Origin: Pseudomonas sp. BN102
Lineage (GTDB): Bacteria > Pseudomonadota > Gammaproteobacteria > Pseudomonadales > Pseudomonadaceae
Length of the DNA stretch: 64,000 nt
Reading direction: 5' to 3'
NCBI RefSeq assembly: GCF_029871245.1
Contig: NZ_SSON01000036.1
Location: forward strand, 1 to 64,000
Position 1 is the stretch's first letter, and each line of letters starts with the position of its first letter. The notes beneath the pieces are model-generated. The model made no database searches. It was given only the letters and a program-made list of their open reading frames with translations, and was not told the origin of the DNA. The position numbers and the translations under genes were made by a program. Shown piece by piece: positions 34,316-51,959 of the stretch.

Positions 34316-35140
34316 TTACTCATCTTCCCCCGCCCGCTCCAGCAGGCTGCGGGCGCGGCCGATCACAGGGGCATCCACCATCGCCCCATCCACCACGAAT
34401 ACGCCCTCCCCCGAGGCTGCCGCGGCGAGCACACGGCGAGCCCAGTCCAGCTCGGTGTCGCTGGGGCGCAAGGCCTGGTGGATCACCTCCACCTGGCTGG
34501 GGTGGATGCACAGCAAGCCGGCGAAGCCCATGTCGCGGGCGAAACGTACCGTCCGGGCCAGTCCCTCGGCGTTCTGGATATCCGGGTAGACGCTGTCCAG
34601 GGGCGGCGCCAGGCCGGCAAGACGGGAATGCAGGAGCACGGCGTAGCGCGCATGGCCCATTACCTGCTCCGCGGCCTCGCTGCCGCTGGCCAGGTTGAGG
34701 TCCAACCCCAGGTCGAGGCTGCCGAAGGACAGGCGCTCGACGCCCTCTGCCGAAGCGATCTCGCCCACCGCCCAGAGCCCACGGGCGCTTTCGATGATGG
34801 GCCAGACCGGCTTGCCGGTGGCCGCCGCGCGACGTACCTCTGCTGCGCTTTCGGCCTTGGGCAGCATCACCCCGACCACCCCTGCGTGCCGCTGGCAGAG
34901 CGCCAGGTCGGCTTCGTGCTGGGGATGCGCCGGCGCGTTCACCCGCACCAGGATTTCAACGTCCGGATGCTCGACGAGGAAGCGTTCGAGGTTGTCCCGC
35001 GCCTCCACCTTGAGGCTTTCCTGGACGGCGTCCTCCAGGTCCACTATCACCCGGCTGGCGCCGCTGGCCAGGGCCTTGGGAATGCGCTCGGGACGGGTGG
35101 CCGGTACGAATAACGCGGATCGGATGACGGTCTTGCTCAT
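34316..35140 (-). CDS. CitE-like HpcH/HpaI-family lyase, probable (citra)malyl-CoA lyase
   Basis: A 274-residue CitE-superfamily TIM barrel. RSALFVPATRPERIPKALASG at the N-terminus, VDLEDAV (metal-ligand acidic residues), RVNAP, LPKAES and PIIESARGL (catalytic Glu and Arg), and CIHPSQV are present. CitE-like lyases cleave citramalyl-CoA or malyl-CoA to pyruvate or glyoxylate plus acetyl-CoA. Last gene of the seven-gene operon (41105-34316). In P. aeruginosa Ccl has this role in itaconate breakdown. Confidence 0.9.
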   Translation of the reverse strand: MSKTVIRSALFVPATRPERIPKALASGASRVIVDLEDAVQESLKVEARDNLERFLVEHPDVEILVRVNAPAHPQHEADLALCQRHAGVVGVMLPKAESAAEVRRAAATGKPVWPIIESARGLWAVGEIASAEGVERLSFGSLDLGLDLNLASGSEAAEQVMGHARYAVLLHSRLAGLAPPLDSVYPDIQNAEGLARTVRFARDMGFAGLLCIHPSQVEVIHQALRPSDTELDWARRVLAAAASGEGVFVVDGAMVDAPVIGRARSLLERAGEDE

Positions 35141-35160
35141 GATTGTGTTCCCCTGCCCTG

Positions 35161-35988
35161 TCAGTCGAATTCCACTTCGCCCAGCTGGGCGAGGCCGGCC
35201 TGGTTGCCGGCCCAGACTTCCGCCTTGCCGCTGCCCACCAGCGTTCCACTTACCTCGAAGCGCTCGGGGCAGATCAGCGGGCGCACACCGCGAAAGGCGA
35301 AGCGGCGCAGGCGCGCCTGCGGATTGGCGCGGCAGAAGGCGCGCAGGTTGAGAGTGGCGATCAGCGGCCCGTGGACCACCAGCCCCGGGTAGCCCTCCGT
35401 CTCGGTGACGTAAGGCCAGTCGTAATGGATGCGGTGGCCGTTGAAGGTGACCGCCGAATAACGGAACAGCAGCGTGGGGCTGGGCTCGACGGTCTCCAGC
35501 CAGGCACCGCTGCGCAACGGGTCGGGGCTGGACAGTTTGGGCGGCGTAGGCTCGCGGTAGACGATATCCTGCTCGTCGCGCAGGGCCAGGCGCCCCTCCT
35601 GGAAGTGATCATGGCGCACCGTGACGAACAGCAGCGAGCCGGTGCGGCCGTGCTTCTCCTGAACGTCGAGGATGGTGGAAATCCGCGTCACCTCCCCGCC
35701 CACCTTCAGCGGCTCGATGAACTCCAGGCGGCTGCCGGCCCACATGCGGTTGCGGTTGTCCGCCGGCGGCAGGAAACCGCCCCGCGCCGGATGCCCGTCC
35801 CCGCCAAGGCGGGATTCGAACACCGGGTCCTGGAAAAAGGCCCAGTGCCACAACGGCGGCAGCGCTTCGCCGTGGGCAGGGGTGGGTTCGCCGAGAGTAG
35901 CGGCGATGCGTTTGACCAGGTTGCGGCTGATCTGGTCGTGGGTTTCCTCGGTGCGTCCGATCCAGGCGGACAGCTCCACTTCACTCAT
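35161..35988 (-). CDS. MaoC-type hydratase, probable mesaconyl/itaconyl-CoA hydratase
   Basis: A 275-residue double hot-dog protein. The C-terminal half has the hydratase motif HYDWPYVTETEGYPGLVVHG (Asp/His pair of the MaoC site), and RMWAGSRLEF with LRSGAW marks the mesaconyl-C4-CoA hydratase group (HTD2/Ich). It would hydrate itaconyl- or mesaconyl-CoA to citramalyl-CoA. It starts 64 bases after the CoA-transferase gene and ends 20 bases before the lyase gene. Confidence 0.88.
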   Translation of the reverse strand: MSEVELSAWIGRTEETHDQISRNLVKRIAATLGEPTPAHGEALPPLWHWAFFQDPVFESRLGGDGHPARGGFLPPADNRNRMWAGSRLEFIEPLKVGGEVTRISTILDVQEKHGRTGSLLFVTVRHDHFQEGRLALRDEQDIVYREPTPPKLSSPDPLRSGAWLETVEPSPTLLFRYSAVTFNGHRIHYDWPYVTETEGYPGLVVHGPLIATLNLRAFCRANPQARLRRFAFRGVRPLICPERFEVSGTLVGSGKAEVWAGNQAGLAQLGEVEFD

Positions 35989-36052
35989 GTTCGTCTTGCT
36001 CCTCGATTGGACTGGAAGCCCTTGTCGACTCTACCGACCGGCCTCCATGAAT

Positions 36053-37255
36053 TCAGATCATTCCGGCCCGGCGCATCTGCTCCGCCTGCTCGGCGGGCAC
36101 GTCCAGTTCAGCCAGCAATGCCTCGGTGTGTTCGCCCAGGGCCGGCACCGGGTCCATGCGCGGCGCATAGGCGCTGTTGCTGGCCGGCGGCAGCAGGCTC
36201 GGCAAGGGACCTGACGGGCTGCCGATCTGGCGCCAGCGGTCGCGGGCCTTGAGCTGAGGGTGCTCCCACACGCCCTGCATGTCGTTGACCCGCGCATTGG
36301 CGATCTGCGCCTCCTCCAGGCGCTGGATCACCGCATCGAAGTCAAGCCGAGCGAAGGTCTCGACGATGATGGCCCGCAAGGCCGAGCGATTCGCCACCCG
36401 TTTGAAGTTTGCGGAAAAGCGCTCATCCGTGCTTAGTTCCGGGCACTGCAGCACCTTCGCGCAGAAGGCCTGCCATTCGCGCTCGTTCTGCAGGCCGAGC
36501 ATCACGCTGTTGCCGTCCCCTACCGGGAAGGGACCATAGGGATAGATGGTGGCATGGGCGGCGCCCGCACGAGGCGGCGGCGGAGCGCCTTCGTAGGCGT
36601 AGTACATCGGGTAGTTCATCCACTCCACCAGGCTTTCCAGCATGGACACGTCCACCCTGCTGCCCTGCCCGGTCTTCTGCCGCAACAGCAGCGCAGAGAG
36701 GACGCCGGTGTAGGCGTACATGCCTGCGGCGATATCGGCGATGGAGCAGCCGGCCTTGGCCATTTCGTCGTCGCCCGGGCCGCCGGTGACGGAGAGGAAG
36801 CCGCCCTCGCTCTGGATCAGCAGGTCATAGGCCTTTTTCTTTTCATAAGGGCCGCCCTCGCCATAGCCGGAGATGTCGCACACCACCAGGCGTGGAAAGC
36901 GCGCGTGCAACGCCTCGAAGGACAGTCCCATGCGCGCGGCGGCGCCGGGCGCGAGGTTCTGCACCAGCACATCGGCCTTTTCCAGAAGGCGATCCAGCAC
37001 CTCCAGCGCCGGGCCCTGCTTGAGGTCCAGGGTCAGGCTCTCCTTGGAGCGGTTGGTCCAGACGAAATGGGACGCCAGGCCACTGACGCGCTCGTCATAA
37101 CCACGGGCGAAGTCACCGGAGCCGGGGCGCTCGACCTTGATCACGCGCGCGCCCAGGTCGGCCAGCTGACGGGTACAGAACGGCGCGGCGATGGCGTGTT
37201 CGAGACTGACCACCGTGATGCCGTCGAGGGGGCGCATTGCTGCAGGCTGGCTCAT
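36053..37255 (-). CDS. class III CoA-transferase (CaiB/Frc family)
   Basis: A 400-residue class III CoA-transferase. LDGITVVSLEHAIAAPFCTRQLADLGARVIKVE is the N-terminal block (quoted in part as LADLGARVIKVE), NRSKESLTLDLK follows, and the catalytic Asp is in YDLLIQSEGG. GYGEGGPY is the Gly-rich loop. Similar enzymes transfer CoA from succinyl-CoA to itaconate, mesaconate or citramalate. The start at 37255 is preceded by GGGAGC; a longer frame is possible. Confidence 0.88.
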   Translation of the reverse strand: MSQPAAMRPLDGITVVSLEHAIAAPFCTRQLADLGARVIKVERPGSGDFARGYDERVSGLASHFVWTNRSKESLTLDLKQGPALEVLDRLLEKADVLVQNLAPGAAARMGLSFEALHARFPRLVVCDISGYGEGGPYEKKKAYDLLIQSEGGFLSVTGGPGDDEMAKAGCSIADIAAGMYAYTGVLSALLLRQKTGQGSRVDVSMLESLVEWMNYPMYYAYEGAPPPPRAGAAHATIYPYGPFPVGDGNSVMLGLQNEREWQAFCAKVLQCPELSTDERFSANFKRVANRSALRAIIVETFARLDFDAVIQRLEEAQIANARVNDMQGVWEHPQLKARDRWRQIGSPSGPLPSLLPPASNSAYAPRMDPVPALGEHTEALLAELDVPAEQAEQMRRAGMI

Positions 37256-37309
37256 GGATAAGCTCCCGATTGCAGACGCCGCGCCCGCCAAGGGGCGCGG
37301 CTGACAGGG

Positions 37310-38473
37310 TCAGAACGAACGCGGCAGTTCGAGCAGGTGCTCGGCCACGTAGGACAGGATCAGGTTGGTGGAGATGGGCGCCACCTGGTACAGGCGGGTC
37401 TCGCGGAACTTGCGCTCCACGTCGTACTCGTTGGCGAAGCCGAAACCACCGTGGGTCTGCAGGCAGGCGTTGGCCGCTTCCCAGCTGGCCTTGGCCGCCA
37501 GGTACTTGGCCATGTTGGCGGCGGCACCCGCATTCAGGCCGGCGTCGTACTCCTCGCAGGCGCGCCAGCGCATCAGGTCGGCAGCCTCGATCTCGATATG
37601 GGCTTCGGCGATGGGGAACTGCACCCCCTGGTTCTGCCCGATGGGCCGGCCGAACACCACGCGGTCGCGGGCGTACTGGGCGGACTTCTCGGTGAACCAG
37701 CGGCCGTCGCCGATGCACTCGGCAGCGATCAGGGTGCGCTCGGCATTGAGGCCGTCGAGGATGTAACGGAAGCCCTTGCCCTCTTCGCCGATCAGGCTGC
37801 TGGCGGGGATTTCCAGGTTGTCGAAGAACAGCTCGTTGGTCTCGTGGTTGACCATGTTGGCAATCGGCTGCACGGTCAGGCCGTTGCCGATGGCCTCACG
37901 CAGGTCCACCAGGAAGATCGACATGCCTTCGGACTTCTTCTTCACCTCGGCCAGCGGCGTGGTGCGGGCCAGCAGGATCATCAGGTCCGAATGCTGGATG
38001 CGCGAGATCCACACCTTCTGGCCGTTGATCACGTACTTGTCGCCCTGGCGCACCGCCGTGGTCTTGATCTTGGTGGTGTCGGTGCCAGTCGTGGGCTCGG
38101 TGACGCCCATGGACTGCAGGCGCAATTCGCCGCTAGCCAGCTTCGGCAGGTAGTAGCGCCTCTGCTCCTCGCTGCCGTTACGCAGCAGGGTGAACATGTT
38201 GTACATCTGCCCGTGGATGGTGCCGGAGTTGCCGCCGCAGTAATTCACCTCTTCGAGGATCACCGACGCCTCGGCCAGGCCCAGGCCGGAGCCGCCGTAC
38301 TCTTCCGGGATCATCGCCGACAGCCAGCCGGCCTCGGTCATAGCGGTCACGAAGGCCTCTGGAAAGCCCTTCTCTTCATCGATCTTGCGCCAGTACTCGG
38401 CGGGAAATTCGGCGCAGAGGGCGCGCACGCCTTCGCGGATGGCATTCAGTTCTTCGTTGTTACGGATGCTCAT
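37310..38473 (-). CDS. acyl-CoA dehydrogenase with IVD-type catalytic Glu
   Basis: A 387-residue FAD acyl-CoA dehydrogenase. SMGVTEPTTGTDTT and VWISRI are FAD/acyl contact motifs and THGGFGFANEYDVER is the C-terminal signature. At the usual catalytic Glu (YEGTSE) this protein has YQVAPIS, with no Glu. A Glu at 245 in GLNAERTLIA aligns with the catalytic Glu of isovaleryl-CoA and long-chain dehydrogenases, which suits branched acyl chains. It would oxidise methylsuccinyl-CoA or similar. It lies between ALDH and CoA-transferase genes. Confidence 0.88.
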   Translation of the reverse strand: MSIRNNEELNAIREGVRALCAEFPAEYWRKIDEEKGFPEAFVTAMTEAGWLSAMIPEEYGGSGLGLAEASVILEEVNYCGGNSGTIHGQMYNMFTLLRNGSEEQRRYYLPKLASGELRLQSMGVTEPTTGTDTTKIKTTAVRQGDKYVINGQKVWISRIQHSDLMILLARTTPLAEVKKKSEGMSIFLVDLREAIGNGLTVQPIANMVNHETNELFFDNLEIPASSLIGEEGKGFRYILDGLNAERTLIAAECIGDGRWFTEKSAQYARDRVVFGRPIGQNQGVQFPIAEAHIEIEAADLMRWRACEEYDAGLNAGAAANMAKYLAAKASWEAANACLQTHGGFGFANEYDVERKFRETRLYQVAPISTNLILSYVAEHLLELPRSF

Positions 38474-38486
38474 TGTTGTTCTTTCC

Positions 38487-39974
38487 TCAACGCAGGACAA
38501 AGGGGTTGGGGACGTCTTCGGCGAGGTTCACCCAGACGCTCTTGGTCTGCAGGTAATCCTCGATGGCCACCTGGCCGTTCTCCCGGCCGATACCGCTCTG
38601 CTTGTAACCGCCGAAGGGCGCCATGAAGCTCACGGCGCGGTAGGTGTTGACCCAGACGGTGCCGGCACGGACCTGATCGGTGACGCGGAAGGCGCGGCGG
38701 ATATCCGAGGTCCAGATACCTGCGGCCAGCCCATAGGGGGTGTCGTTGGCGATGCTGATCGCTTCGTCCTCGTCGTCGAAGGGAATGATCGACAGCACGG
38801 GGCCGAAGACCTCCTCGCGGGCGATGCGCATCTGGTTGTTCACGTCGCCGAAGATGGTCGGCTCGACGAACCAGCCATTGGCCAGTTCCGCCGCCTCGGG
38901 GCGCTTGCCCCCCAGCAGGCATTCGGCGCCACCCTCGCGGGCGACATCGATGTACTGCAGCACCTTGTCCCGTTGTGGCTGGGTGGTGATCGGGCCGACC
39001 TGGGTGCTTTCCAGCATCGGGTCGCCGAGTTTCGCGGTGCGGGCCAGGTCCACCACCTTCTCGCTGACTTCCTGGTAGACGCTGCGCTGCACCAGCAGGC
39101 GCGAGCCGGCGATGCAGGTCTGCCCGGAGGCGGCGAAGATGCCAGAGATGGCGCCCTTCACCGCGTGCTCGATATTGGCGTCGGCGAATACGATGTTCGG
39201 CGACTTGCCGCCCAGCTCCAGGGTGACGTGCTTGATGTGCTTCGCCGCCTGGGCGTAGACCGCGGCGCCGGTAGCGTCACCGCCGGTGAAAGCTACCTTG
39301 GCCACCAGCGGATGGCTGACCAGGATCGGCCCCACTTCATGGCCGAAGCCGGTGACGGTGTTGACCACGCCATCCGGGAAGCCCGCCTCCTTCACCAGCG
39401 CCATGAGCGCCAGGGTGGAGCAGGAGGTGAACTCGGACGGCTTGATCACCACCGTGTTGCCGGCGGCGAGCGCCGGCGCCAGCTTCCAGGTCAGCAGCAT
39501 GAGCGGGGAATTCCAGGGCGTGATGGCCACCACCACGCCCAGGGGCTCGCGCTTGGTGTAGGAGAAGATCTGCGGCTTGTCGCTGGGCAGCACGCCGCCT
39601 TCGATCTTGTCCGCCAGGCCGCCGAAGTAATAGAACCACTCCGGCAGGTAGCGCAATTGCCCCAGCATCTCGGCGTACAGCTTGCCGTTGTCGCGGACCT
39701 CGATGGCCGCGAGCTTCTCCGCATCGCGGGCGATCAGGTCGCCCAGGCGGCGCAGCAGCTTGCCCCTCGAGGTGGCCGACAGTTTCGGCCAGGGGCCGCT
39801 GCTGAAGGCCCGGTGCGCGGCCTCGATGGCCAGGGCGGCATCTTCGGCGCCGCACTGCGGTACCTCGGCCCACTCGGCGCCGGTGAAGGGGTTGGCCGTC
39901 GCCAGCCAGCGCCCGGTGCTGCTGGTGCGGTACTGGCCATCGACCAGGTTCTGGAAGCGCTCGGGATTGGACAT
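38487..39974 (-). CDS. aldehyde dehydrogenase (NAD(P)+)
   Basis: A 495-residue ALDH of normal length. Catalytic Cys is in SGQTCIAG, general base Glu in LELGGKSP, and the oxyanion Asn in TPWNSP. The cofactor site contains FTGGDATGAAV. It oxidises an aldehyde to an acid; directly downstream of the decarboxylase subunits, its substrate is probably their aldehyde product. The start MSNPERF at 39974 is chosen over a longer frame. It is 13 bases from the ACAD gene. Confidence 0.93.
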   Translation of the reverse strand: MSNPERFQNLVDGQYRTSSTGRWLATANPFTGAEWAEVPQCGAEDAALAIEAAHRAFSSGPWPKLSATSRGKLLRRLGDLIARDAEKLAAIEVRDNGKLYAEMLGQLRYLPEWFYYFGGLADKIEGGVLPSDKPQIFSYTKREPLGVVVAITPWNSPLMLLTWKLAPALAAGNTVVIKPSEFTSCSTLALMALVKEAGFPDGVVNTVTGFGHEVGPILVSHPLVAKVAFTGGDATGAAVYAQAAKHIKHVTLELGGKSPNIVFADANIEHAVKGAISGIFAASGQTCIAGSRLLVQRSVYQEVSEKVVDLARTAKLGDPMLESTQVGPITTQPQRDKVLQYIDVAREGGAECLLGGKRPEAAELANGWFVEPTIFGDVNNQMRIAREEVFGPVLSIIPFDDEDEAISIANDTPYGLAAGIWTSDIRRAFRVTDQVRAGTVWVNTYRAVSFMAPFGGYKQSGIGRENGQVAIEDYLQTKSVWVNLAEDVPNPFVLR

Positions 39975-39993
39975 GGTAGTCACCTCTCGACAG

Positions 39994-40593
39994 TCAGATG
40001 GGCGGGTGACCAAGAGCCGCACGGAAGCGGTTCTTGATGTAGCTGCCATCACGCGGCGGCAGCACGCGCGGCGGGTTCTCCGCCTTGATCTTGACGGTGG
40101 CGAGCTTCACGCCGGCATCGCGGACGGCGATCTGCTCGCGCAGCCGGTGCACGCCTTCCATGTCGCGGACCTCGTCCGTCCAGCCGAAGCCACAGGTCTT
40201 CGCCACCTGGTCCAGGGCGATGCCGTGGCCGGCATGGCTGACCTGCATGCCGGTTTCGCCGAAGTGGCCGTTGTCCAGCACCACGATGGTCAGGTTGGCC
40301 GGCTTCTGCAGGGCGATGGTGGCCAGGGAGCCGAAGCCCATCAGCATCTCGCCGTCGCCGGTCACGACCACGACGGATTTGTCCGGTTGCGCCTTGGCGA
40401 TGCCCAGGCCGACCATGGCAGCGCTGCCCATGGCAGCCCAGAGGTAGTAGTTGTTGTCGTGGTCCCCGGCGGCCATCACGTCGTAGGAAGCCGAACCCAG
40501 CCCGGTGACCACCAGCAGGTCGCTGCGGTCGGCCAGCAGGGTCTTGACCACTTCGCGACGGTCGAGGATGTGGTTGGCGCTTACTTGACCCAT
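39994..40593 (-). CDS. ThDP-dependent 2-oxoacid decarboxylase, beta (ThDP-binding) subunit
   Basis: A 199-residue ThDP pyrophosphate-binding domain. The GDGEMLMGFGSLATIA motif binds Mg-ThDP and the strand IVVLDN follows. The size and split architecture match sulfopyruvate or phosphonopyruvate decarboxylase ComE-like subunits. It overlaps the alpha-subunit gene by 13 bases. The nature of the 2-oxoacid is not fixed by the sequence. Confidence 0.87.
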   Translation of the reverse strand: MGQVSANHILDRREVVKTLLADRSDLLVVTGLGSASYDVMAAGDHDNNYYLWAAMGSAAMVGLGIAKAQPDKSVVVVTGDGEMLMGFGSLATIALQKPANLTIVVLDNGHFGETGMQVSHAGHGIALDQVAKTCGFGWTDEVRDMEGVHRLREQIAVRDAGVKLATVKIKAENPPRVLPPRDGSYIKNRFRAALGHPPI

Positions 40594-41105
40594 TTCTTTT
40601 CTCCAATCAGGCGCTGCCCCAGCAGCAGCGCGGTAGCGGAATCGCCGTTGAACGCCATGGTGGCCGCGCCATGCAGCAGCGGCGCCACGTCCTTGGGATC
40701 GTCGGCTTGCCAGGTCATCACGCCCATCAGCTTCAGCGAAGCTTCGGTGGCCTGGCCCATAGGGTTCTGCCAGGGGTTGAACTCGGCCCAGTCGCCGCGC
40801 ATGGTCACCACCATCAGCAGCGGGAAGCGTGCGCAAACCTGCAGGGCCAGGTTGTTGATGCAGTTGCCCACGCCGCTGGACTGCATCAGCAGCGCACCGC
40901 GCTCGCCGCCAAGCCAGGCGCCGGCCAGGTAGCCGATGCCCTCTTCCTCGGTGGTCAGCACCACGTCATGGATCTCTGGGTCGGCGATGGACATGCGAAT
41001 GGCGGCGGAGTGGCCGGCGTCCGGCACGTAGACCACGTGCTTGACGTCGTGAGCCTTGAGGACGTTGAACACGTCCACCTGCCAGTCGATTTCGGGTGTT
41101 GTCAT
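40581..41105 (-). CDS. ThDP-dependent 2-oxoacid decarboxylase, alpha (PYR) subunit
   Basis: A 174-residue PYR domain, partner of the downstream subunit. TTEEEGIGYLAGAWLGG carries the Glu that activates ThDP, and LLMQSSGVGNCINNLALQ the conserved Gly-Asn region. ComD-like length. The start at 41105 follows GGAGACAAG. First gene of the operon, with an operator-like palindrome about 90-110 bases upstream. Confidence 0.87.
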   Translation of the reverse strand: MTTPEIDWQVDVFNVLKAHDVKHVVYVPDAGHSAAIRMSIADPEIHDVVLTTEEEGIGYLAGAWLGGERGALLMQSSGVGNCINNLALQVCARFPLLMVVTMRGDWAEFNPWQNPMGQATEASLKLMGVMTWQADDPKDVAPLLHGAATMAFNGDSATALLLGQRLIGEKKWVK

Positions 41106-41191
41106 GCTTGTCTCCGAAAGGCTTGATGCCCTGTGTTTTTTTCGATTCTGCGGGGCTTGGCAGTCAGCGACGACTACCGTTTTTTTCAACG

Positions 41192-41213
41192 AGATATGCC
41201 CGCTCGGCATAGC
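41192..41213. promoter_or_regulatory. LysR operator-like palindrome before the decarboxylase operon
   Basis: AGATATGCCCGCTCGGCATA plus GC contains TATGCC-N5-GGCATA, a perfect dyad. AGATATGCCCG is identical to 34092-34102 and close to 42929-42939. It ends at the base before the MFS stop codon, 87 bases before the alpha-subunit start. Confidence 0.6.
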
Positions 41214-42590
41214 TCAGGAGTGGGCGCCGGAGACGGCTCCGACGCGCTTGAAGCCGGTCTTCTGTTCGATTTCACCACTGCCGTCGAGGTAGCCGTAACG
41301 GGTCAGGTCGGGCATCAGCAGCGAGGCGATGAACGTCACGGCCAGCACACAGGCGACGTAGAAGAAGAAGTAGGTCTCCACCCCTTGGGAGCGGAACGAC
41401 AGCGCCACGTACTCGGCCGTACCACCGAACAGGGCGTTGCCGATGGCGTAGGGGAAGCCCACCCCGAGGGCGCGCACCGATGCCGGGAAGAGTTCGGCCT
41501 TTACCAGGCCGGAGATCGGCGTGTAGAGCGAGGCGATGGCCAGGCCCGTGAACACCAGGAGGAAGGCGACGAAGGGACTGCCAACCGAACGCAGGGCGAA
41601 CAGCAGGGGCACCACGATCAGCATGGCGAGCCCGGAGAACAGCAGCATGTGGGTCTTCACGCCCAGCCGATCGGCGAGCATGCCGAAGAACGGCTGGCAG
41701 AGCATGAAGCACACCAGCGCGGCGGTCATGACGAAACTTACCGTCTCCGCCGGCAGCCCGACCGAGATCACCAGGAACTTCTGCATGTAGGTGGTGAAGG
41801 TATAGAAGTACAACGATCCACCGATGGTGAAGGCGATCACCAGGGCCACGGCGCGCTTGTGCTGGAGCAGCCCCTTGAGCGAGCCGGCCTCCTTCTTGTG
41901 CATGTCCTTCTTCGAAGCGCTTTCATGCATCGCACGGCGCAGGTAGACCACCACTACCGCGCTCAGGGCACCGATGAAGAACGGGATGCGCCAGCCCCAC
42001 TCGGTCAGCTCTTCCTTGCTCAGGGTCTGCTGCAGGGTGACCACTGTGAGGAGCGCGAGGATCTGCCCGGCGATGATGGTGAAGTACTGGAAGGAGCCGA
42101 AGAACCCGCGCCGTCCGGGAGTGGCCATTTCGCTGATGTAGGTTGCGCCCGTGCCGTACTCGGCGCCGACGGACAGGCCCTGGATGAGCCTGGCGATCAG
42201 CAGCAGGATCGGCGCGGCGATGCCAATGCTTTCATAGGTCGGCATCAGCGCGATCAGCAGCGAGCCCGCGCACATCAGGAACACCGAGATGATCATCGAG
42301 ACCTTGCGCCCGCGGGTGTCGGCGATCCAGCCGAACAGCCAGCCGCCCAGCGGGCGCATGAAGAAACCCACGGCGAAGACGCCGGCGGTGGCCAGTAGCT
42401 GGGTGGTCTGGTCGCCCTTGGGGAAGAAGGCGGCGGCGAAGTAGATCGAGGTATAGGCGTAGATGAAGAAGTCGTACCACTCCACCAGGTTGCCGGAACA
42501 GGCGCCCAGGATGGAGCGGGCGCGACTGCGCGCCGACTTCAGGCCGGGGTCGTTGGCGGAGTGGAGCTGCTCGGAAGCGGATGAGGTCAT
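41214..42590 (-). CDS. MHS-family dicarboxylate/2-oxoglutarate permease (KgtP-like)
   Basis: A 458-residue major facilitator with 12 membrane segments. GNLVEWYDFFIYAYTSIYFA, RPLGGWLFGWIADTRGRK and RLIQGLSVGAEYGTG are metabolite:H+ symporter signatures. KgtP transports 2-oxoglutarate, and relatives carry branched dicarboxylates. Immediately upstream of the decarboxylase operon, it is the likely importer of its substrate. Confidence 0.9.
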   Translation of the reverse strand: MTSSASEQLHSANDPGLKSARSRARSILGACSGNLVEWYDFFIYAYTSIYFAAAFFPKGDQTTQLLATAGVFAVGFFMRPLGGWLFGWIADTRGRKVSMIISVFLMCAGSLLIALMPTYESIGIAAPILLLIARLIQGLSVGAEYGTGATYISEMATPGRRGFFGSFQYFTIIAGQILALLTVVTLQQTLSKEELTEWGWRIPFFIGALSAVVVVYLRRAMHESASKKDMHKKEAGSLKGLLQHKRAVALVIAFTIGGSLYFYTFTTYMQKFLVISVGLPAETVSFVMTAALVCFMLCQPFFGMLADRLGVKTHMLLFSGLAMLIVVPLLFALRSVGSPFVAFLLVFTGLAIASLYTPISGLVKAELFPASVRALGVGFPYAIGNALFGGTAEYVALSFRSQGVETYFFFYVACVLAVTFIASLLMPDLTRYGYLDGSGEIEQKTGFKRVGAVSGAHS

Positions 42591-43119
42591 TGTTGTTGTC
42601 CTTTCTTCGAGGCGAGCCGGGACTGAGCGTCGGCCACGGTGGCTCGCTCGGAATGCGCGACTGCAGGTTGTCAGGCGTGGGAGCGGATCAGCGCTCGGTC
42701 GGCGAACACACGGATGCCGGCGTCAGCGCCGGAGGATGCTGGGCGGGACTTCGAACGAGCCGGGCGGCACGGACCGATGGGACAGGGAATCGCGAGGCGT
42801 TGTGAATCATGGGGCAGGCCCTCGGAGCTCTTGTTCTTGTCTTGCGCCGCCTCCAGGGGCAGCGGGTACTCACGGGGACCACGCTACCCCAGCCGGGGCC
42901 GACGAATAAGCCGGACCCTGTATCTATCAGCTATGCCCAAATGTTATCGCTCGCCCGCAAAGGCCCGCCCGCAGTGCTCCGGCCGCCCCTGGAAGGATCG
43001 AGCAGTGCATCCCGGTCCGGCACGCCGGGGTTCGTCCCAGGCCGAATGGCATTACACTCCACAGCGCAGCCGCCCCTGCGGGCCAGGCTCTTAATCTGCC
43101 CCTCGTCAATGGTTCATCG
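42591..43119. other. 529-base divergent regulatory region
   Basis: No supported gene between the permease (minus) and the LysR gene (plus). It contains the operator-like CTATCAGCTATGCCC sequence listed next. The rest is GC-rich without clear repeats. Confidence 0.5.
42924..42949. promoter_or_regulatory. LysR operator-like site in the divergent region
   Basis: CTATCAGCTATGCCCAAATG plus TTATCG, matching 20 of 26 bases of 34088-34113. It lies 170-196 bases before the LysR start. Confidence 0.55.
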
Positions 43120-44043
43120 ATGGACATCGTTCAGCTCAAGACCCTGATCCACGTCGCCGAACTGGGCAGCCTCAGTAAGGCTGCCGACCGCCTGCACATC
43201 GCCCAACCGGCTCTCAGCCGGCAGATTCGCCATCTGGAGCAGGAGCTTGGCACCTACCTGTTCGAGCGCCACGGACGCGGTATGGAAGTCACCGATATCG
43301 GCCGGGAGGTGGTCGCCCACGCCTCGCGCATCCTCGAGGAGATGGAGTCCATCCGCACCACGGCAACCGGCGGGCGTTCCTCCTTCCGGGGCAGCGTCAC
43401 CATCGGCACCACGCCCACGATTGCGGAGATCGTCACCGTTCCCCTGGTACGCAAGGTCCGCGACGACCACCCGCACCTGGTGGTGCGCTTCTCCTCCGCC
43501 TTCAGCGGCTACCTGCTGGACTGGCTGCAGCGCGGCGAGCTGGACCTGGCGTTCTCCTACGACCCGCAGCCCTTGCACACCCTGCGCATCCAGCCCGTGC
43601 TGATGGAAAACCTGATGCTGGTGGGTCCGGCCGATGCCGGCCTGCGCCTGGATACCCCGGTGCGTTTCAGCGACATCCGCGAGCAGCAGGTGGTGGTGCC
43701 GAGCCAGCGCCACGGCCTGCGCAGCATTGTCGAGGAGTGCGCGCGGCAGGCCGAGGTGAAACTGCGTTGCAATGTAGAGGCCGACTCCTTCGGCGCCATG
43801 ATCGACCTGGTGCGCAACGGTTTCGGCCTCACCTTCCTGCCCCTGGCGCCCATCTACGCCCTGGTGCAGAACGGCACGCTGACCGCCGCGCCACTGATCG
43901 ACCCGGAGCCCATGCGCAAGCTGGTGCTGGTCTATCCGGCCGACCGTCGCGTCAGCCCGGCGGCGAAGTTCGTCGGCGAGTCCTTCGTCGAGATCACCGC
44001 CGACCTGGTAGCCCGCAACATCTGGGCCGGCCATATGCTCTGA
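43120..44043 (+). CDS. LysR-family regulator (NAC/CbbR-like group)
   Basis: A 307-residue LTTR. HVAELGSLSKAADRLHIAQPALSRQIRHLE (HTH) is typical; the effector domain follows from about residue 90. Divergent from the permease gene, it is the probable regulator of the permease and decarboxylase operon, and perhaps gltP, because the same operator-like sequence recurs at all three. Confidence 0.92.
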   Translation: MDIVQLKTLIHVAELGSLSKAADRLHIAQPALSRQIRHLEQELGTYLFERHGRGMEVTDIGREVVAHASRILEEMESIRTTATGGRSSFRGSVTIGTTPTIAEIVTVPLVRKVRDDHPHLVVRFSSAFSGYLLDWLQRGELDLAFSYDPQPLHTLRIQPVLMENLMLVGPADAGLRLDTPVRFSDIREQQVVVPSQRHGLRSIVEECARQAEVKLRCNVEADSFGAMIDLVRNGFGLTFLPLAPIYALVQNGTLTAAPLIDPEPMRKLVLVYPADRRVSPAAKFVGESFVEITADLVARNIWAGHML

Positions 44044-44088
44044 CGCACCTGGTCTGCCCCCACGTATCCCGATTGAGTCGAGTTCTCC

Positions 44089-44832
44089 ATGGATCTGAAC
44101 CCTGACGCCCTGGTCATGCTGCCGGGCCTTCTCAACGACCAACGCCTCTGGGCGCAACAGACCGCCGACCTGGCCGGTGAGCGGACGGTGCGCGTCGCCG
44201 ACCTCACCCGCGTCGACAGCATTCCCGCCATGGCCCGCCGCGTGCTGGACGAAGCCCCGCACCGCTTCGCCCTGGCGGCGCTTTCCATGGGTGGCTATGT
44301 GGCCTTCGAAATCATGCGCCAGGCGCCGGAGCGAGTGCAGCGCCTGGCCCTGTTCGACACCATGGCCAGCCTCGACTCGGCGGAGCGCGCCGCCACCCGC
44401 AGGGGGCTGCTGCAGCTTGCCCATCGCGGCCGCTTCATCGGCGTCAGCCCGCAACTGATGCCACGCCTGATCCACCCGCGCTGGCTGGACTCCCACGTCT
44501 CCGCCACGGTGCAGCAGATGGCGGTGGCCGTGGGCAAGGAAGGCTTCATCCGCCAGCAGCAGGCGATCATCGACCGCCCCGACGCCGTGCCCCTGCTCCC
44601 CGGCATTCGCGTGCCGACGCTGATCGTGGTCGGTGCCGACGACCAGCTCACGCCCGTCGCCGAGGCCCGCCTGATGCATGAGCGGATTCCCGGCTCGCGG
44701 CTGGAAATCCTGCCGGACTGCGGCCACCTCCCGCCGTTGGAGCAGCCGGCGCTCACCACCAGCCTGCTCAGGGAGTGGCTTGCCATGGACGCCATCGAGC
44801 AGTCCCAGCCGGAGTTCGTCTACACCCTTTGA
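44089..44832 (+). CDS. alpha/beta hydrolase
   Basis: A 247-residue alpha/beta hydrolase. MLPGLLNDQRLW is the oxyanion strand, LAALSMGGYVAF has the nucleophile Ser, VVGADDQLTP the Asp and DCGHLPPLEQP the His. It starts 46 bases after the LysR gene, probably co-transcribed. Esterase, thioesterase or lactonase; substrate unknown. Confidence 0.88.
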   Translation: MDLNPDALVMLPGLLNDQRLWAQQTADLAGERTVRVADLTRVDSIPAMARRVLDEAPHRFALAALSMGGYVAFEIMRQAPERVQRLALFDTMASLDSAERAATRRGLLQLAHRGRFIGVSPQLMPRLIHPRWLDSHVSATVQQMAVAVGKEGFIRQQQAIIDRPDAVPLLPGIRVPTLIVVGADDQLTPVAEARLMHERIPGSRLEILPDCGHLPPLEQPALTTSLLREWLAMDAIEQSQPEFVYTL

Positions 44833-44846
44833 ATCAGCAGGATGGG

Positions 44847-46061
44847 CTACTTTGTCTTCAGGCAGAAGCTCCGGATCGCCTCGCACGCCGCGTGCAGCGA
44901 CGCATCATCCAGCGCATACGCGATGCGGATGTACCCGTCCAGGCCAAAGGCGCTGCCGGGCACCACCGCGACACTGGCCTCGTCCAGCAGGGCGTGGGCC
45001 GCATCCTCGTCGCTGAACAGTCCGCGACCACCCGGCGATACCTTGCCGATCAACGCGGAGCAGTCGGCGAAGGCGTAGAAGGCCCCTGCCGGCATGTCGC
45101 AGCGGATGCCGGGCGTGTCGTTGAGCATGGCCACCATGAAGTCCCGGCGACGCTGGAACACCTCACGGCTCTCGCGAATGAAGTCCTTCGGCCCGCGCAA
45201 GGCGGCAACCGCCGCGTGCTGGGAAATGGAACAGGCCCCCGAAGTCTGCTGGCCCTGCAGTTTCTCCATGGCCTCCAGCAGCCAGCGCGGGCCGGTGGCG
45301 AAGCCGATGCGCCAGCCAGTCATGGCGTAGGCCTTGGAGACCCCGTTCATGGTCAGGGTGCGCTCGGCCAGGCGTGGCTCGACCTGGGCGATGGTATGGA
45401 ACTCGGCGCGGTCGAAGATCAGGTGCTCGTAGATGTCGTCCGAGAGGACCAGCACCTGCGGATGCTCCAGCAGCACGTCGGCCAGGGCACGCAGTTCCTC
45501 GCGGCTGTACACGGCGCCGGTGGGGTTGGACGGCGAGTTGAGAATCAGCCAGCGGGTATCCGCGCCAATGGCGCTCTGCAGCGCCTGGGCCGTCAGCTTG
45601 AAGCCGCTGTCGGCACCGCAGGTAACGATGCGCGAATGGCCGCCGCAGAGCTGGACCATCTCCGGGTAGCTCACCCAGTAAGGCGCCGGGATGATGACTT
45701 CGTCGCCCTCGTTCAGGGTGGCGGCCAGGGCGTTGTAGATCACCTGTTTGCCGCCGCTGCACACCAGCGTGCTCTCCCAATCCGCCTGCAGTCCATTCTC
45801 GTCGCGGAACTTGGCGGCGACGGCCTCACGCAGCACACGCAGGCCTGCGACCTGGGTATAGCGGGTGTGGCCGGCGTCTATCGCCGCGATGGCGGCCTGG
45901 CGGATATGCGCTGGGGTGTCGAAGTCGGGCTCTCCGGCGCACAGCGAGATAATGGTGGCGCCTTCAGCGCGGCGTGCGGCGACACGATCAATGATTCGAT
46001 AAGTTGCTGAGGGCTGAGCAGCCGCAAGACGGCGATTGAGGCCCTGAAAGTCCCGGCTCAC
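44847..46061 (-). CDS. class I/II PLP-dependent aminotransferase
   Basis: A 404-residue aspartate-aminotransferase-like enzyme (subgroup Ib). CAGEPDFDTP, NSPSNPTGAVYS, LSDDIYEHL, PLP-Lys in NGVSKAYAMTGWRIGFA and the C-terminal IRIAYALDD arginine are present. The GTG start at 46061 overlaps the stop of the preceding RraA-like gene (GTGA). It is the last gene of the RraA operon. Substrate unknown; a dicarboxylic amino acid is plausible from the Arg residues. Confidence 0.9.
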   Translation of the reverse strand: MSRDFQGLNRRLAAAQPSATYRIIDRVAARRAEGATIISLCAGEPDFDTPAHIRQAAIAAIDAGHTRYTQVAGLRVLREAVAAKFRDENGLQADWESTLVCSGGKQVIYNALAATLNEGDEVIIPAPYWVSYPEMVQLCGGHSRIVTCGADSGFKLTAQALQSAIGADTRWLILNSPSNPTGAVYSREELRALADVLLEHPQVLVLSDDIYEHLIFDRAEFHTIAQVEPRLAERTLTMNGVSKAYAMTGWRIGFATGPRWLLEAMEKLQGQQTSGACSISQHAAVAALRGPKDFIRESREVFQRRRDFMVAMLNDTPGIRCDMPAGAFYAFADCSALIGKVSPGGRGLFSDEDAAHALLDEASVAVVPGSAFGLDGYIRIAYALDDASLHAACEAIRSFCLKTK

Positions 46062-46696
46062 TGGCCCACCTCCTGGCGTTCGAGGCCCATCAGCTCGACG
46101 GTGGTGCGCCCTTCGCGCAGCGCCGCCATCATCCGCGCTTCCTTGTCGGCGCGCGCCTCGCCCTCGGCCAGGGTGCGCTCCACCTCGGCCCGGGGAATGA
46201 TCACCACGCCATCGTCATCGGCCACCACCAGGTCGCCCGGCGCGACCTGAGCGCCGTTGAACGGAATGGGCGCCCCGATGGAGGGCGCGGTGGCCTTGAC
46301 GGTGCCCTTCACCGACACGCCACGGGAAAACACCGGGAAGCCCAGCTTCTCGATGGCCTGGATATCGCGCACGCCGCCATCGATCACCAGGCCGACCACA
46401 CCGGCCGCCTGGGCCGCCACGGTGAGCACTTCGCCCCAGTAACCGGCGAGGAAGTTACCGGTGCCCACCACCAGCACGCTGCCTTGCGGGGCGCGCTCCA
46501 GGGCCAGGTGCAGGGCCAGGTTGTCACCCGGCGAACACTCCAGCGGATAGGCCGGGGCGGCAATGAAGGCGCCACGCCAGACGGGGCGGATCGCCGGGTC
46601 CACGGCGGTCGGCAGCCCGGAGGCTTCGTACAGGGTGGAGCTACCGAGCGCCTTGGCGCGTTGGGCTACGGAGCCGATGTCGAAGTTGGCGCTCAT
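46058..46696 (-). CDS. RraA/HMG-aldolase family protein 1
   Basis: A 212-residue RraA-like fold. IDGGVRDI (DGxxRD, the metal- and pyruvate-binding motif of HMG/CHA aldolases), then SRGVSVKGTVKA, IPFNGAQVAPGDLVVADDDG. This is the classical 4-hydroxy-4-methyl-2-oxoglutarate / 4-carboxy-4-hydroxy-2-oxoadipate aldolase signature. It would cleave such compounds to pyruvate plus another 2-oxoacid. Coupled by 4-base overlaps on both sides. Confidence 0.88.
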   Translation of the reverse strand: MSANFDIGSVAQRAKALGSSTLYEASGLPTAVDPAIRPVWRGAFIAAPAYPLECSPGDNLALHLALERAPQGSVLVVGTGNFLAGYWGEVLTVAAQAAGVVGLVIDGGVRDIQAIEKLGFPVFSRGVSVKGTVKATAPSIGAPIPFNGAQVAPGDLVVADDDGVVIIPRAEVERTLAEGEARADKEARMMAALREGRTTVELMGLERQEVGQ

Positions 46697-47358
46697 TGGG
46701 ATTTCCTCTGCAGGTCGTGATAGCCGAGCGCGGCCCGGGCTTCTTTCAGGGTCTTGCCACTGGCGATCTGCTCGCGGATCTGCGCTTCGACCTTCTCGAT
46801 CTGACGGGCGCATTCGGCCACCTCGCGGGCGCGGCCACGGGGCACCAGCACCACGCCATTGGCGTCGGCGACCACTATGTCGCGGGCGCAGGCACGCGCG
46901 GTTCCGATACTCACCGGCTGGTTCACCGCCACCACCTCGACGCGGTCCTTGCCGGTGCGCATGAAGCGCCCCCTGGTGAATAGCGGGTAGCCTTCGCCCA
47001 GGGCCTTAATCACGTCGCGGCAGACGCCGTCGATCACGGTGCCGGCGATGCCGCGCGCCAGGGCGTACTGGGTCATGATGTCGCCCCACACGGTGCAGTC
47101 GGTGCGGCCGCCGTTGGCGATCACCACGACGTCACCCGGCGCCACGTCGTCGATGAAGTCGCCCACGGTGCCGGGCGGGGTGCTGGCGCAGACGTACTGC
47201 ACGGTGAAGGCCGGGCCCACGGTGACCTGCTGGTAATCGGCCAGGGGCGCGATATCCAGGCACTGGCCGGGCAGCCCCAGCTTGTCCATGGCATCGGACA
47301 CGGCCGGCGTATCCAGGCCCTCGAACAGGGCGACGAGCTCCTTGTCTGCTGCGTTCAT
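46693..47358 (-). CDS. RraA/HMG-aldolase family protein 2
   Basis: A 221-residue paralog of its neighbours. It keeps the metal motif as VIDGVCRDV and ends VADANGVVLVPRGRA. The middle (TRGRFMRTGKDRVEV) differs from protein 1, so the substrate may differ. It overlaps both flanking genes by ATGA, so the three must be made in stoichiometric amounts. Confidence 0.86.
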   Translation of the reverse strand: MNAADKELVALFEGLDTPAVSDAMDKLGLPGQCLDIAPLADYQQVTVGPAFTVQYVCASTPPGTVGDFIDDVAPGDVVVIANGGRTDCTVWGDIMTQYALARGIAGTVIDGVCRDVIKALGEGYPLFTRGRFMRTGKDRVEVVAVNQPVSIGTARACARDIVVADANGVVLVPRGRAREVAECARQIEKVEAQIREQIASGKTLKEARAALGYHDLQRKSQ

Positions 47359-48023
47359 GCGCCGGCCTCCGCCTTGATGGCTTCGAACTGGCTGTCGTGC
47401 ATCACGCTCTCCACCGAGCGTCCTGCCCTCACCGCCTCCACCATGCCCGCCTGGCGGCGGTCTATGCGTTCGGCGAGCTCGAGCACTGCTTCGATGACTT
47501 CGGCCGGAACGAAGACGGTGCCGCACTCATCGGCGATCACGTAGTCGTCCTCGTTTACCTCCACGCCGCCCATGCGAACCTTGCAGCCAGAATCGACCTG
47601 CACCAGGCGGTTGCGCGCGCTGATCATGGTCACGCCCCGGCCGTAGACCGGGTAGCCGATCTCCGCGCTGCCCTTGATGTCGCGACTGAAGCCGTCGATC
47701 ACCGAGCCACGGATGCCCTTCTGGCGGGCCGCGTTGGCGAGGATGTCGCCCCAGCTGGAGATGCCCTCCACGCCACCGGCGATCACCAGCACGCGGTCAT
47801 CGGTATCGATGCCCGCTACTACGGGCGTGATCAGGTGAACCGTGGGGTTGGCGTCCTGCTTGGGGGCCAGTTGCACGGTACTGGCGCGGCCGACGATCGT
47901 CGGGCAGTTCCAGAGCGGCCGCAGGCCGACGGTGGCGCCGGGCAGGCCGAGGAAGTCCAGGGCGTCGGACACCGTGTTGGTGTCCAGCGCGGACAGTCGA
48001 TTCAGGGCGTTGGTTGCGTTCAT
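47355..48023 (-). CDS. RraA/HMG-aldolase family protein 3
   Basis: A 222-residue paralog, closer to protein 2 than to protein 1. VIDGFSRDI is the conserved motif, followed by YGRGVTMISARNRLV and IADECGTVFVPAEV. First gene of the operon. Its promoter faces the divergent LysR gene, and an operator-like site lies between. Confidence 0.86.
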   Translation of the reverse strand: MNATNALNRLSALDTNTVSDALDFLGLPGATVGLRPLWNCPTIVGRASTVQLAPKQDANPTVHLITPVVAGIDTDDRVLVIAGGVEGISSWGDILANAARQKGIRGSVIDGFSRDIKGSAEIGYPVYGRGVTMISARNRLVQVDSGCKVRMGGVEVNEDDYVIADECGTVFVPAEVIEAVLELAERIDRRQAGMVEAVRAGRSVESVMHDSQFEAIKAEAGA

Positions 48024-48122: not shown

Positions 48123-49022
48123 ATGACCATGATCAACTTCCGCCTGATCCGGCACCTCTGGCTGTTCCTCGCGGTGGCCGAGGAACAAAGCTTCAGCCGC
48201 GCGGCCAAGCGGCTGGGCATGTCCCAGCCACCGCTGACCGAGCAGATCCAGATCCTTGAACACGCCCTGAAGATCAAGCTGTTCGAGCGCTCTCGCCGGG
48301 GTGCGCAGCTGACCCCGGCGGGCGCCGCCATCCTCCCCGCCGTGCGCAAGTTCGCCGACCAGCTGGAGCGCCTGGAGCTGGCGGTGCTGGAAGCGGTGTC
48401 CGGCCAGGCCGGCGTGCTGACCATCGGCGCCATCACCAACGCCATGATCGATGTTCTGCCGCCCCTGATCGACCGTTTCAAGGCCGAGCACCCGCAGATC
48501 ACCGTGGCCGTTCGGGAGATCGACAGCGCGGAAGCCATCCCCGCCCTGGAATCAGGCGATATCGACCTGGCCTTCGCGCGACTGGAGGGCAACCTCGGCA
48601 AGGACATCCGCTCCGTGCCGCTGACCGAGGACCGCCTGGCGGTCGCCATCCTCCGCGACCATCCGCTCGCCGCGCGCCAGCGCCTGACCCTCGCCAGCCT
48701 CGCGGACGAACCGCTGGTGATGTCCTCACGCCAGGTCAGCCCGAACTACTTCGACTACCTGATCGGCGTGTGCAAGGCCAATGGCCTCTCCCCGCGCGTG
48801 CTGCACGAGGTTCGCTCGGTCGCGTCGCAGATCGCTTTCGTCAGTTGCGGCCAGGGAGTCGCCCTGGTGCCCGCCTCGATGAAGAAGCTGGCACCGGACA
48901 ACGTGGTGCTGAAGCCGATCACACCCAGGCTCGGCGTGGTGACCACCGCCGCGGTGTGGAATGCCGCACGGCCCAACCCGTTGGTGGACGCAATGGTGGC
49001 GCAGTTGGCGGCGGATGCCTGA
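48123..49022 (+). CDS. LysR-family transcriptional regulator
   Basis: A 299-residue LTTR of the CatR/BenM-like group. FLAVAEEQSFSRAAKRLGM with SQPPLTEQIQILEHALK is the HTH. Divergent from the RraA-aminotransferase operon. An in-frame ATG two codons later (48129) is an alternative start. It likely controls the divergent operon and, through a near-identical site, the hydrolase gene at 49276. Confidence 0.92.
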   Translation: MTMINFRLIRHLWLFLAVAEEQSFSRAAKRLGMSQPPLTEQIQILEHALKIKLFERSRRGAQLTPAGAAILPAVRKFADQLERLELAVLEAVSGQAGVLTIGAITNAMIDVLPPLIDRFKAEHPQITVAVREIDSAEAIPALESGDIDLAFARLEGNLGKDIRSVPLTEDRLAVAILRDHPLAARQRLTLASLADEPLVMSSRQVSPNYFDYLIGVCKANGLSPRVLHEVRSVASQIAFVSCGQGVALVPASMKKLAPDNVVLKPITPRLGVVTTAAVWNAARPNPLVDAMVAQLAADA

Positions 49023-49174: not shown

Positions 49175-49275
49175 ATGGCTTACCAACTTAGGAATTTACA
49201 GAAGGATAAGCTCACCCGAGAGTGAGGGGGCAGCGCAATCAACTGCGCCAACGCCTTGCCCCAGGAGCCGCCAAC

Positions 49276-51921: not shown

Positions 51922-51959
51922 GGTGCGTCCTCTGCTGGGTAGGTAGGCGGAGCCTGGTA

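Follow-up and report, generated by a model that had tools for sequence, protein, structure and literature searches.

A proposed pathway for C4-branched glutamates in Pseudomonas sp. BN102, with a two-subunit decarboxylase linked to itaconate and methylsuccinate genes

Why would an operon for the breakdown of itaconate also encode a decarboxylase and an aldehyde dehydrogenase? The question is raised by a 64-kb stretch of the genome of Pseudomonas sp. BN102 (6.48 Mb), here called the window, which forms the first part of a 102.6-kb contig. Its minus strand carries a seven-gene operon (41105 to 34316) for, in this order, the two subunits of a thiamine diphosphate (ThDP)-dependent decarboxylase (DecA and DecB, together DecAB), an aldehyde dehydrogenase (ALDH), an acyl-CoA dehydrogenase (ACAD), a CoA-transferase (Ict), a hydratase (Ich) and a lyase (Ccl). 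The genes for DecA and DecB overlap by 13 bp, and the remaining gaps are 13-64 bp long. A second minus-strand operon (48023 to 44847), with successive overlaps of 4 bp, holds three RraA-type genes (Rra1, Rra2 and Rra3) and an aminotransferase gene. A first-pass annotation had listed both operons together with a KgtP-like and a GltP-like transporter; in open reading frame and family searches all of these genes proved to be intact, of the families named and on the minus strand. The locus probably serves the catabolism of C4-branched glutamates, from uptake to pyruvate and acetyl-CoA, possibly with a branch through the RraA-type proteins.

The later steps are the easiest to read. The class III CoA-transferase Ict (36053..37255; PF02515), the MaoC-like itaconyl-CoA/mesaconyl-C4-CoA hydratase Ich (35161..35988) and the CitE-like (S)-citramalyl-CoA lyase Ccl (34316..35140) are 77.0, 77.8 and 74.4% identical to their counterparts in a P. 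aeruginosa-like reference genome (G518), where the cluster order is Ich-ACAD-PrpD-Ict-Ccl. Over all 275 of its residues the hydratase matches Protein Data Bank (PDB) entry 8khg, "Itaconyl-CoA hydratase" (E 2.6e-149), to which the Ich of the reference genome is 97.8% identical across the 231 residues compared; the lyase matches PDB 8khl (E 2.5e-129). At the thresholds used, the BN102 genome contains one match each for lyase and hydratase. ACAD (37310..38473) is 92.4% identical to the reference gene at the position of methylsuccinyl-C4-CoA dehydrogenase (Mcd, PA0879), and its orthology is judged by this identity and position rather than against the PA0879 sequence itself. A search of PDB chains with ACAD gave no match at 1e-60.

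In P. aeruginosa and Cupriavidus, a cluster of this type (PA0878-PA0883) degrades both itaconate and methylsuccinate (PMC12290011 and PMC9875883, both available in excerpt). The excerpts of the former describe its ACAD as methylsuccinyl-C4-CoA dehydrogenase and its PrpD protein as a methylsuccinate isomerase, Msi. The window shares orthologs of Ict, Ich, Ccl and the dehydrogenase with this cluster. It differs in having no methylsuccinate isomerase, in having no equivalent of the unassigned gene at the 2-hydroxyparaconate lactonase position, and in carrying an extra ThDP decarboxylase, ALDH and KgtP-type transporter in front. Orthology to characterised enzymes makes the steps that turn methylsuccinate or itaconate into pyruvate and acetyl-CoA well founded, and this half is already published rather than new. 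The orthologies agree with two earlier proposals from the first-pass annotation, that the CoA-transferase, hydratase and lyase form a P. aeruginosa-type itaconate pathway and that the ACAD could bring methylsuccinate into it.

Two simpler descriptions of the operon were rejected. A plain itaconate operon would leave ACAD, ALDH and the decarboxylase superfluous. A Rip-type cluster, which we take to be that of Y. pestis, likewise leads from itaconate to pyruvate and acetyl-CoA with a CitE-type lyase; it was rejected because the window lyase scores 153.9 bits, far below the cut-off for RipC (375). The available text of PMC12290011 presents the itaconate clusters of Y. pestis and P. aeruginosa as convergent evolution.

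What, then, is the decarboxylase? DecA (40581..41105) has the PYR domain (PF02776) and DecB (39994..40593) the PP domain (PF02775) of the ThDP-dependent decarboxylase superfamily, with the GDG..N ThDP motif from residue 79 of DecB, and the pair is predicted to form a two-subunit 2-oxoacid decarboxylase. The PDAGH and TTEEE stretches of DecA are kept in five aligned relatives. This two-domain architecture is common to sulfopyruvate decarboxylase (ComDE) and phosphonopyruvate decarboxylase, and the two small subunits are found in ComDE as well. DecAB nevertheless stays below the equivalog cut-offs of both families and has other gene neighbours. DecA scores 105.2 bits against TIGR03845 (cut-off 147.95) and DecB 136 bits against TIGR03846 (cut-off 221.5). 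Against the phosphonopyruvate decarboxylase model TIGR03297 (cut-off 312.5), which represents one 360-residue chain whereas DecA and DecB are separate, the scores are 112.9 for DecB and 55 for DecA. Membership in either family was rejected on these scores. In a quick tree, in which some long branches are of unsure place (L037 above all), the DecAB proteins are separated from 11 distant homologs by a branch with a Shimodaira-Hasegawa-like approximate likelihood ratio test (SH-aLRT) value of 99. Among the DecAB proteins the label for an itaconate module is scattered, needing 17 changes of which at least six are forced.

Whether the decarboxylase keeps company with itaconate genes elsewhere can be asked in several sets of genomes. 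The first comprises 398 genomes of the same family, the BN102 genome included, searched with thresholds of E <=1e-60 for Ich and E <=1e-40 for DecA. Ich was found in 167 of them and DecA in six, and in all six the listed coordinates place Ich on the same strand as DecA within about 5 kb. The second set comes from a pattern scan of named genomes and holds 80 DecA loci (20 from Pseudomonas and 60 from other genera), which are the best 80 of 539 matches, with close relatives over-represented. It overlaps with the family sample in three genomes (G692, G757 and G654, with loci L047, L051 and L101). Relatives of ACAD and/or Ict accompany DecA at 19 of the 20 Pseudomonas loci and 21 of the 60 others, and at the sole Pseudomonas locus that has neither (L050) the contig ends soon after DecB. 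Genome and plasmid loci together make up a third set, of 93 DecAB loci (L037, which duplicates L164, was removed, and L005-L007, L021 and L025-L029 were uncounted). Such relatives are present at 48 of them, for example in Deinococcus, Streptomyces, Rhodococcus, Mesorhizobium, Sinorhizobium, Bosea and Methylobacterium.

Outside Pseudomonas, DecAB adjoins such partners in Alpha- and Betaproteobacteria, Actinomycetota and Deinococcota. Bosea has the gene order of the window, and Mesorhizobium, Sinorhizobium and Haematobacter have divergent operons. A single operon in Deinococcus is annotated as PrpD-DecA-DecB-PxpA-ACAD-CoA-transferase-lyase-MaoC-ALDH, and Nisaea and Thalassobaculum carry minimal sets of DecA-DecB-ACAD-Ict. 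Because the same content occurs in differing orders, a functional relation is favoured over an inherited neighbourhood. The link between DecAB and the itaconate/methylsuccinate genes is real and not accidental, and many genera show the arrangement, complete or partial. The grouping of the decarboxylase with itaconate-type genes, made from the window alone, is borne out by the constant presence of Ich near DecA in the family sample. The accompanying remark that no such system had been described holds in part: the lower pathway is published and the layout exists in other genera, but no description linking this decarboxylase to the itaconate/methylsuccinate pathway was found in the literature searched, which leaves most subscription journals outside.

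A wider role for DecAB has to be weighed here. The enzyme could be a general or unrelated decarboxylase, of the 2-oxoglutarate, sulfopyruvate or phosphonopyruvate type, that is merely co-regulated with itaconate genes. Sulfopyruvate and phosphonopyruvate decarboxylases are its nearest named families, and 34 of the 93 loci, some on short contigs, have neither the lower-pathway partners nor the amino-acid enzymes described below, so that DecAB may serve other 2-oxo acids. The scores below both families' cut-offs, the separation from distant homologs in the tree and the closeness of Ich in every DecA genome of the family make this explanation quite improbable.

Some individual loci are of interest in their own right. 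In Tardiphaga and relatives (L063, L064, L066, L067, L070 and L071), DecAB is found with a 68-69% identical relative of the window regulator LysR1, and relatives of the itaconate, RraA and ALDH genes are missing within 10 kb; L063 has a gene after DecAB that looks by eye like a FAD-linked oxidase. Another use of DecAB is possible at these loci. On a Burkholderia cenocepacia plasmid (L038 10209-15995), the ALDH-annotated gene after DecAB is short, at 393 bp, and IS3 and IS66 transposases come next, so that the cluster seems to be in decay here. On a Bosea plasmid (L032 5086-8349), annotated genes of the NADP-isocitrate-dehydrogenase, PrpD and isochorismatase families lie directly upstream of DecAB, and a branched isocitrate is a conceivable precursor of the 2-oxo acid. 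In many Pseudomonas versions, an EtfB-EtfA pair stands between Ict and Ich (L044 13559-15280, L057 13634-15365), perhaps a dedicated electron carrier for the dehydrogenase. EtfB occurs at 60% identity or more at 15 of the 93 loci, and the window has no EtfB-EtfA pair.

How do itaconate clusters look when the decarboxylase is missing? As controls, 26 of the 167 Ich genomes, mostly top-ranked, were picked for having no DecA match, so that the absence of DecA only reflects the selection. All 26 Ich loci carry Ict, Ccl, ACAD and a PrpD/Msi relative. None of them has a window-type ALDH, a KgtP relative, a window-like aminotransferase, Rra1, or a relative of the 5-oxoprolinase, glutamate dehydrogenase (GDH) or FAD oxidase used as queries. 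Conversely, the window operon has no open reading frame for a MmgE/PrpD methylsuccinate isomerase, and no PrpD match of any kind was found at the 20 Pseudomonas DecAB loci. Across the 93 loci, a PrpD/Msi relative occurs at three (one Msi-like query, at least 38% identity), and less similar PrpD-family genes lie near DecAB at L032, L061, L093, L164 and L166. Because the controls carry PrpD/Msi but not the window-type ALDH or KgtP, while the Pseudomonas DecAB loci are without PrpD, the pathway has two forms in this family: a free-acid form that includes the isomerase, and a form with the decarboxylase.

The missing isomerase would follow from the stereochemistry of a particular substrate. Natural 4-methylglutamate is the (2S,4R) form. 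By the priority rules, its C4 becomes the (R) centre of methylsuccinate. Since Ict prefers (R)-methylsuccinate according to the excerpts of PMC12290011, direct formation of the (R) form would make Msi unnecessary.

Which 2-oxo acid does DecAB then act on? Loss of CO2 must yield a branched C5 dicarboxylate, and a C6 2-oxo dicarboxylate is therefore needed. The neighbours of DecAB point to a glutamate-like source. Judged by similarity and annotation, near the 93 loci there are aminotransferases (at least 50% identity) at 19, PxpA 5-oxoprolinase at five and FAD oxidases at seven, as well as hydantoinase/lactamase-type proteins (L074, L081 and L168) and a GDH-family protein that scores under curated cut-offs (L164). 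At least one enzyme of the aminotransferase, 5-oxoprolinase/lactamase, GDH-family or FAD-oxidase-like kinds is present at 29 of the 93 DecAB loci and at none of the 26 control loci (Fisher P 0.0005), a value that is a guide only, the amino-acid queries having been chosen after the DecAB loci had been viewed. With aminotransferases, GDH-family and Asp/Glu racemase-family proteins and 5-oxoprolinase among their products, these neighbourhoods agree with the glutamate-type substrate class first proposed.

A version of the locus on a plasmid of a peanut-nodulating Bradyrhizobium combines several of these genes. Around its DecAB are Ict, Ich, GDH, ALDH, an aminotransferase (53% identical to that of the window), an Asp/Glu racemase-family protein, and PxpA together with two subunits of carboxyltransferase type. 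No relative of the window ACAD or lyase was found at 1e-10 in the 40 kb read of this 979-kb plasmid; the annotation has an acyl-CoA dehydrogenase some 17 kb off, amid unrelated genes. Bradyrhizobium plasmids with a match come from peanut in seven of seven cases and look like one plasmid lineage, of which one member was annotated. Peanut is rich in 4-methyleneglutamine.

Two routes had been put forward for the window, from 4-methyleneglutamate to itaconate and from 4-methylglutamate to methylsuccinate. No enzyme accompanies DecAB more often than ACAD (45 of 93 loci, compared with 42 for Ict), which adjoins it even in the minimal sets. The methylsuccinate route is for this reason the likelier main route in the window, and the itaconate route is ranked below it. 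No description of bacterial use of 4-methyl-, 4-methylene- or hydroxymethyl-glutamate was found in the literature searched, and older work is probably in journals outside it.

The same methylsuccinate could be formed from another branched C6 2-oxo dicarboxylate, above all from 3-methylglutamate by way of 3-methyl-2-oxoglutarate. The downstream enzymes are blind to the source and the linkage data apply equally to it. This alternative is nonetheless unlikely: DecAB is linked to aldolases of the RraA/HMG type, whose substrates are C4-substituted, and 3-methylglutamate is the rarer natural product.

Alternatively, the 2-oxo acid might be imported as such by a KgtP-type transporter or be released by aromatic ring cleavage, with the aminotransferase and aldolases serving something else. 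KgtP relatives are present at 23 of the 93 DecAB loci. In addition, 1 kb beyond GltP a plus-strand stretch of the window (30895-31437) matches 4-hydroxy-2-oxovalerate aldolase in the C-terminal half alone (TIGR03217 positions 179-333), with a counterpart in genome G013 (L025 1405-1932, TIGR03217 positions 162-333). It is apparently the remnant of a meta-cleavage pathway gene and makes a connection with aromatic catabolism conceivable. No ring-cleavage family occurs among the operon genes, to which the search for such families was confined, and DecAB loci repeatedly carry amino-acid and lactam enzymes; import or ring cleavage as the source is accordingly given a low probability.

The second operon raises the question of how the RraA-type proteins fit in. 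Rra1 (47355..48023), Rra2 (46693..47358) and Rra3 (46058..46696) are paralogs with the RraA fold, and all three keep a D-G-x-x-R-D motif that corresponds to the Arg-Asp motif of 4-hydroxy-4-methyl-2-oxoglutarate/4-carboxy-4-hydroxy-2-oxoadipate (HMG/CHA) aldolase. In the P. putida F1 enzyme, the catalytic residues are Arg-123 and Asp-124 (PMC5065237, available in part). Rra3 is the nearest of the three to this aldolase (PDB 3noj, E 1.2e-37) and the only one to reach a curated aldolase cut-off, barely: it scores 179.1 against 179 for NF006731, yet 171.9 against 304.5 for TIGR02798, and Rra1 and Rra2 are under both. The fold and the catalytic/metal-binding motif are thus shared with the P. putida F1 aldolase, whereas in the window three paralogs share an operon with an aminotransferase. 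This aminotransferase (44847..46061), a pyridoxal phosphate (PLP) enzyme that scores 510.2 bits against PRK06107 (cut-off 617), is the proposed maker of the 4-substituted 2-oxoglutarate. The simplest reading of the operon would be the conversion of 4-hydroxy-4-methylglutamate to two molecules of pyruvate.

Is the operon tied to DecAB? In the family sample, Rra1 (E <=1e-70) was found in 11 genomes, four of which also have DecA (hypergeometric P 4.7e-6, relatedness ignored), and in three of these four the RraA operon and DecA are 5.4-6.6 kb apart. RraA and aminotransferase genes are found with DecAB, ALDH and KgtP in Pseudogulbenkiania and Paraburkholderia, beside DecAB and ALDH in Acidovorax, and on a Burkholderia plasmid. 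The pairing of the operon with DecAB in the first-pass annotation is supported by this linkage in other genera and qualified by genomes in which the operon occurs alone: seven of the 11 Rra1 genomes have no DecA match. For that reason the RraA operon is a separable module that can work alone. The idea of the two operons as one obligate unit was rejected, as G012 has only the RraA operon. At the L047 locus, a stretch between the aminotransferase and Rra2 (L175 9253-12399) holds a distant RraA-type gene (about 32% identical to Rra3), an extra LysR gene and a major facilitator superfamily (MFS) transporter gene.

These data bear on a further explanation, that the operon of three RraA genes and the aminotransferase belongs to an independent pathway, for example for 4-hydroxyglutamate or an oxaloacetate-type decarboxylation, and is only often adjacent. 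Besides the genomes without DecA, this agrees with the travelling of the operon as a unit with its regulator LysR2 and a hydrolase in G012, G690 and G433, and with G690, where it lies far from the canonical itaconate cluster. Against it, the operon and DecA co-occur more often in the family sample than chance would predict, and the pairing recurs in Beta genomes. Independence of the RraA operon is a serious possibility, though doubtful, and is compatible with the role proposed here for DecAB.

The proposed pathway for C4-branched glutamates can now be set out. A KgtP- or GltP-type transporter would import the amino acid or its 2-oxo acid, and the aminotransferase would convert the former to a 4-substituted 2-oxoglutarate. 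DecAB, with ThDP, would remove CO2 to give the semialdehyde of methylsuccinate (or itaconate), which ALDH would oxidise to the acid. Ict would form the CoA ester of either acid. ACAD would turn methylsuccinyl-C4-CoA into mesaconyl-C4-CoA, a step that itaconyl-CoA would bypass. Ich would then yield (S)-citramalyl-CoA, and Ccl would split it into pyruvate and acetyl-CoA. In the RraA branch, 4-hydroxy-4-methylglutamate would be transaminated to 4-hydroxy-4-methyl-2-oxoglutarate and cleaved by the aldolases to two pyruvates. The roles of DecAB, ALDH and the aminotransferase, and the choice of substrate, are inferred from gene content, and the RraA step is the least certain part of the scheme. ALDH (38487..39974; PF00171) is the candidate methylsuccinate/itaconate semialdehyde dehydrogenase; its best NCBIfam match is BADH, below the cut-off, and relatives of 74-80% identity adjoin DecAB in Bosea, Methylobacterium and Haematobacter.

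Beside the late choice of amino-acid queries, the loci without either partner set, the Rra1 genomes without DecA, the possibility of a 3-methyl substrate and the aldolase remnant, some further observations weigh against this scheme. The window-type ALDH is absent from all 20 Pseudomonas loci. A succinate-semialdehyde dehydrogenase (SSADH)-like ALDH follows the lyase at six of them, and the other 14 show none. Eight of these are on contigs that end early, and six have the whole flank (L044, L047, L051, L054, L055 and L101), so that the enzyme would need to be encoded elsewhere. In the rearranged gene set of Streptomyces, the ACAD relative is 34-35% identical and may have another function. Each of the two operons has its own contig in G013, and one of these contigs ends 1.4 kb after the aminotransferase, so that the operons may or may not be neighbours there.

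The remaining genes of the locus are transporters, regulators and hydrolases. Directly upstream of the seven-gene operon, on the minus strand, is the KgtP-type MFS transporter (41214..42590; NF007710, 587.1 bits, above the cut-off of 550), which probably takes up a 2-oxo or amino dicarboxylate. The GltP-type glutamate/aspartate:proton symporter (32454..33785, minus strand; NF008440, 784.6 bits, above the cut-off of 638) lies 530 bp downstream of the lyase gene and so outside the span first delimited (34316..48023); its relatives are 97% identical in G013 and 63% near DecAB in Paraburkholderia. Two plus-strand genes between the operons had gone unmentioned. One encodes a LysR regulator by family match (LysR1, 43120..44043), divergent from the transporter/decarboxylase operon, with a relative of at least 35% identity at 49 of the 80 DecA loci. 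The other encodes a PcaD-like alpha/beta hydrolase, also by family match (44089..44832), with relatives of 91% in G013 and 59-65% at three Pseudomonas loci.

Beyond Rra1, likewise on the plus strand, are a second LysR regulator (LysR2, 48123..49022), divergent from the RraA operon and travelling with it in several other genomes, and a further alpha/beta hydrolase (49222..50094). Relatives of this hydrolase with 67-76% identity stand beside RraA operons in Pseudomonas, Pseudogulbenkiania, Paraburkholderia and Burkholderia, and it possibly opens a lactone, amide or ester. Farther on, a minus-strand stretch (50797-53063) encodes an agmatine-deiminase-like protein with a signal-like N-terminus, adjoining a PotF-like polyamine-binding protein; both score below curated cut-offs, and the pair is also found beside the RraA operon in G013.

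What is known here is the lower pathway, and what is new is the undescribed and widely conserved DecAB front end. In its broadest form, the proposal is of an undescribed pathway in at least three phyla, in which 4-methyl- or 4-methylene-glutamate passes through a new type of ThDP decarboxylase to methylsuccinate or itaconate and so provides a natural source of methylsuccinate, with the peanut Bradyrhizobium plasmid version, which has no recognisable methylsuccinyl-CoA dehydrogenase in the 40 kb read, tuned to the 4-methylene compounds of peanut. This form is offered tentatively, at slightly less than an even chance. Until itaconate reduction by gut bacteria was described, no natural pathway to methylsuccinate was known, and genes for its use are widespread in saprophytic bacteria, according to the available text of PMC12290011. 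If the proposal is true, branched glutamates that enter through the decarboxylase would make up a second source of methylsuccinate, this one aerobic and probably linked to plants. It would also give a substrate to an uncharacterised group of two-subunit ThDP decarboxylases that spans Pseudomonas to Deinococcus, and the similar clusters in distant bacteria could explain the origin of natural methylsuccinate.

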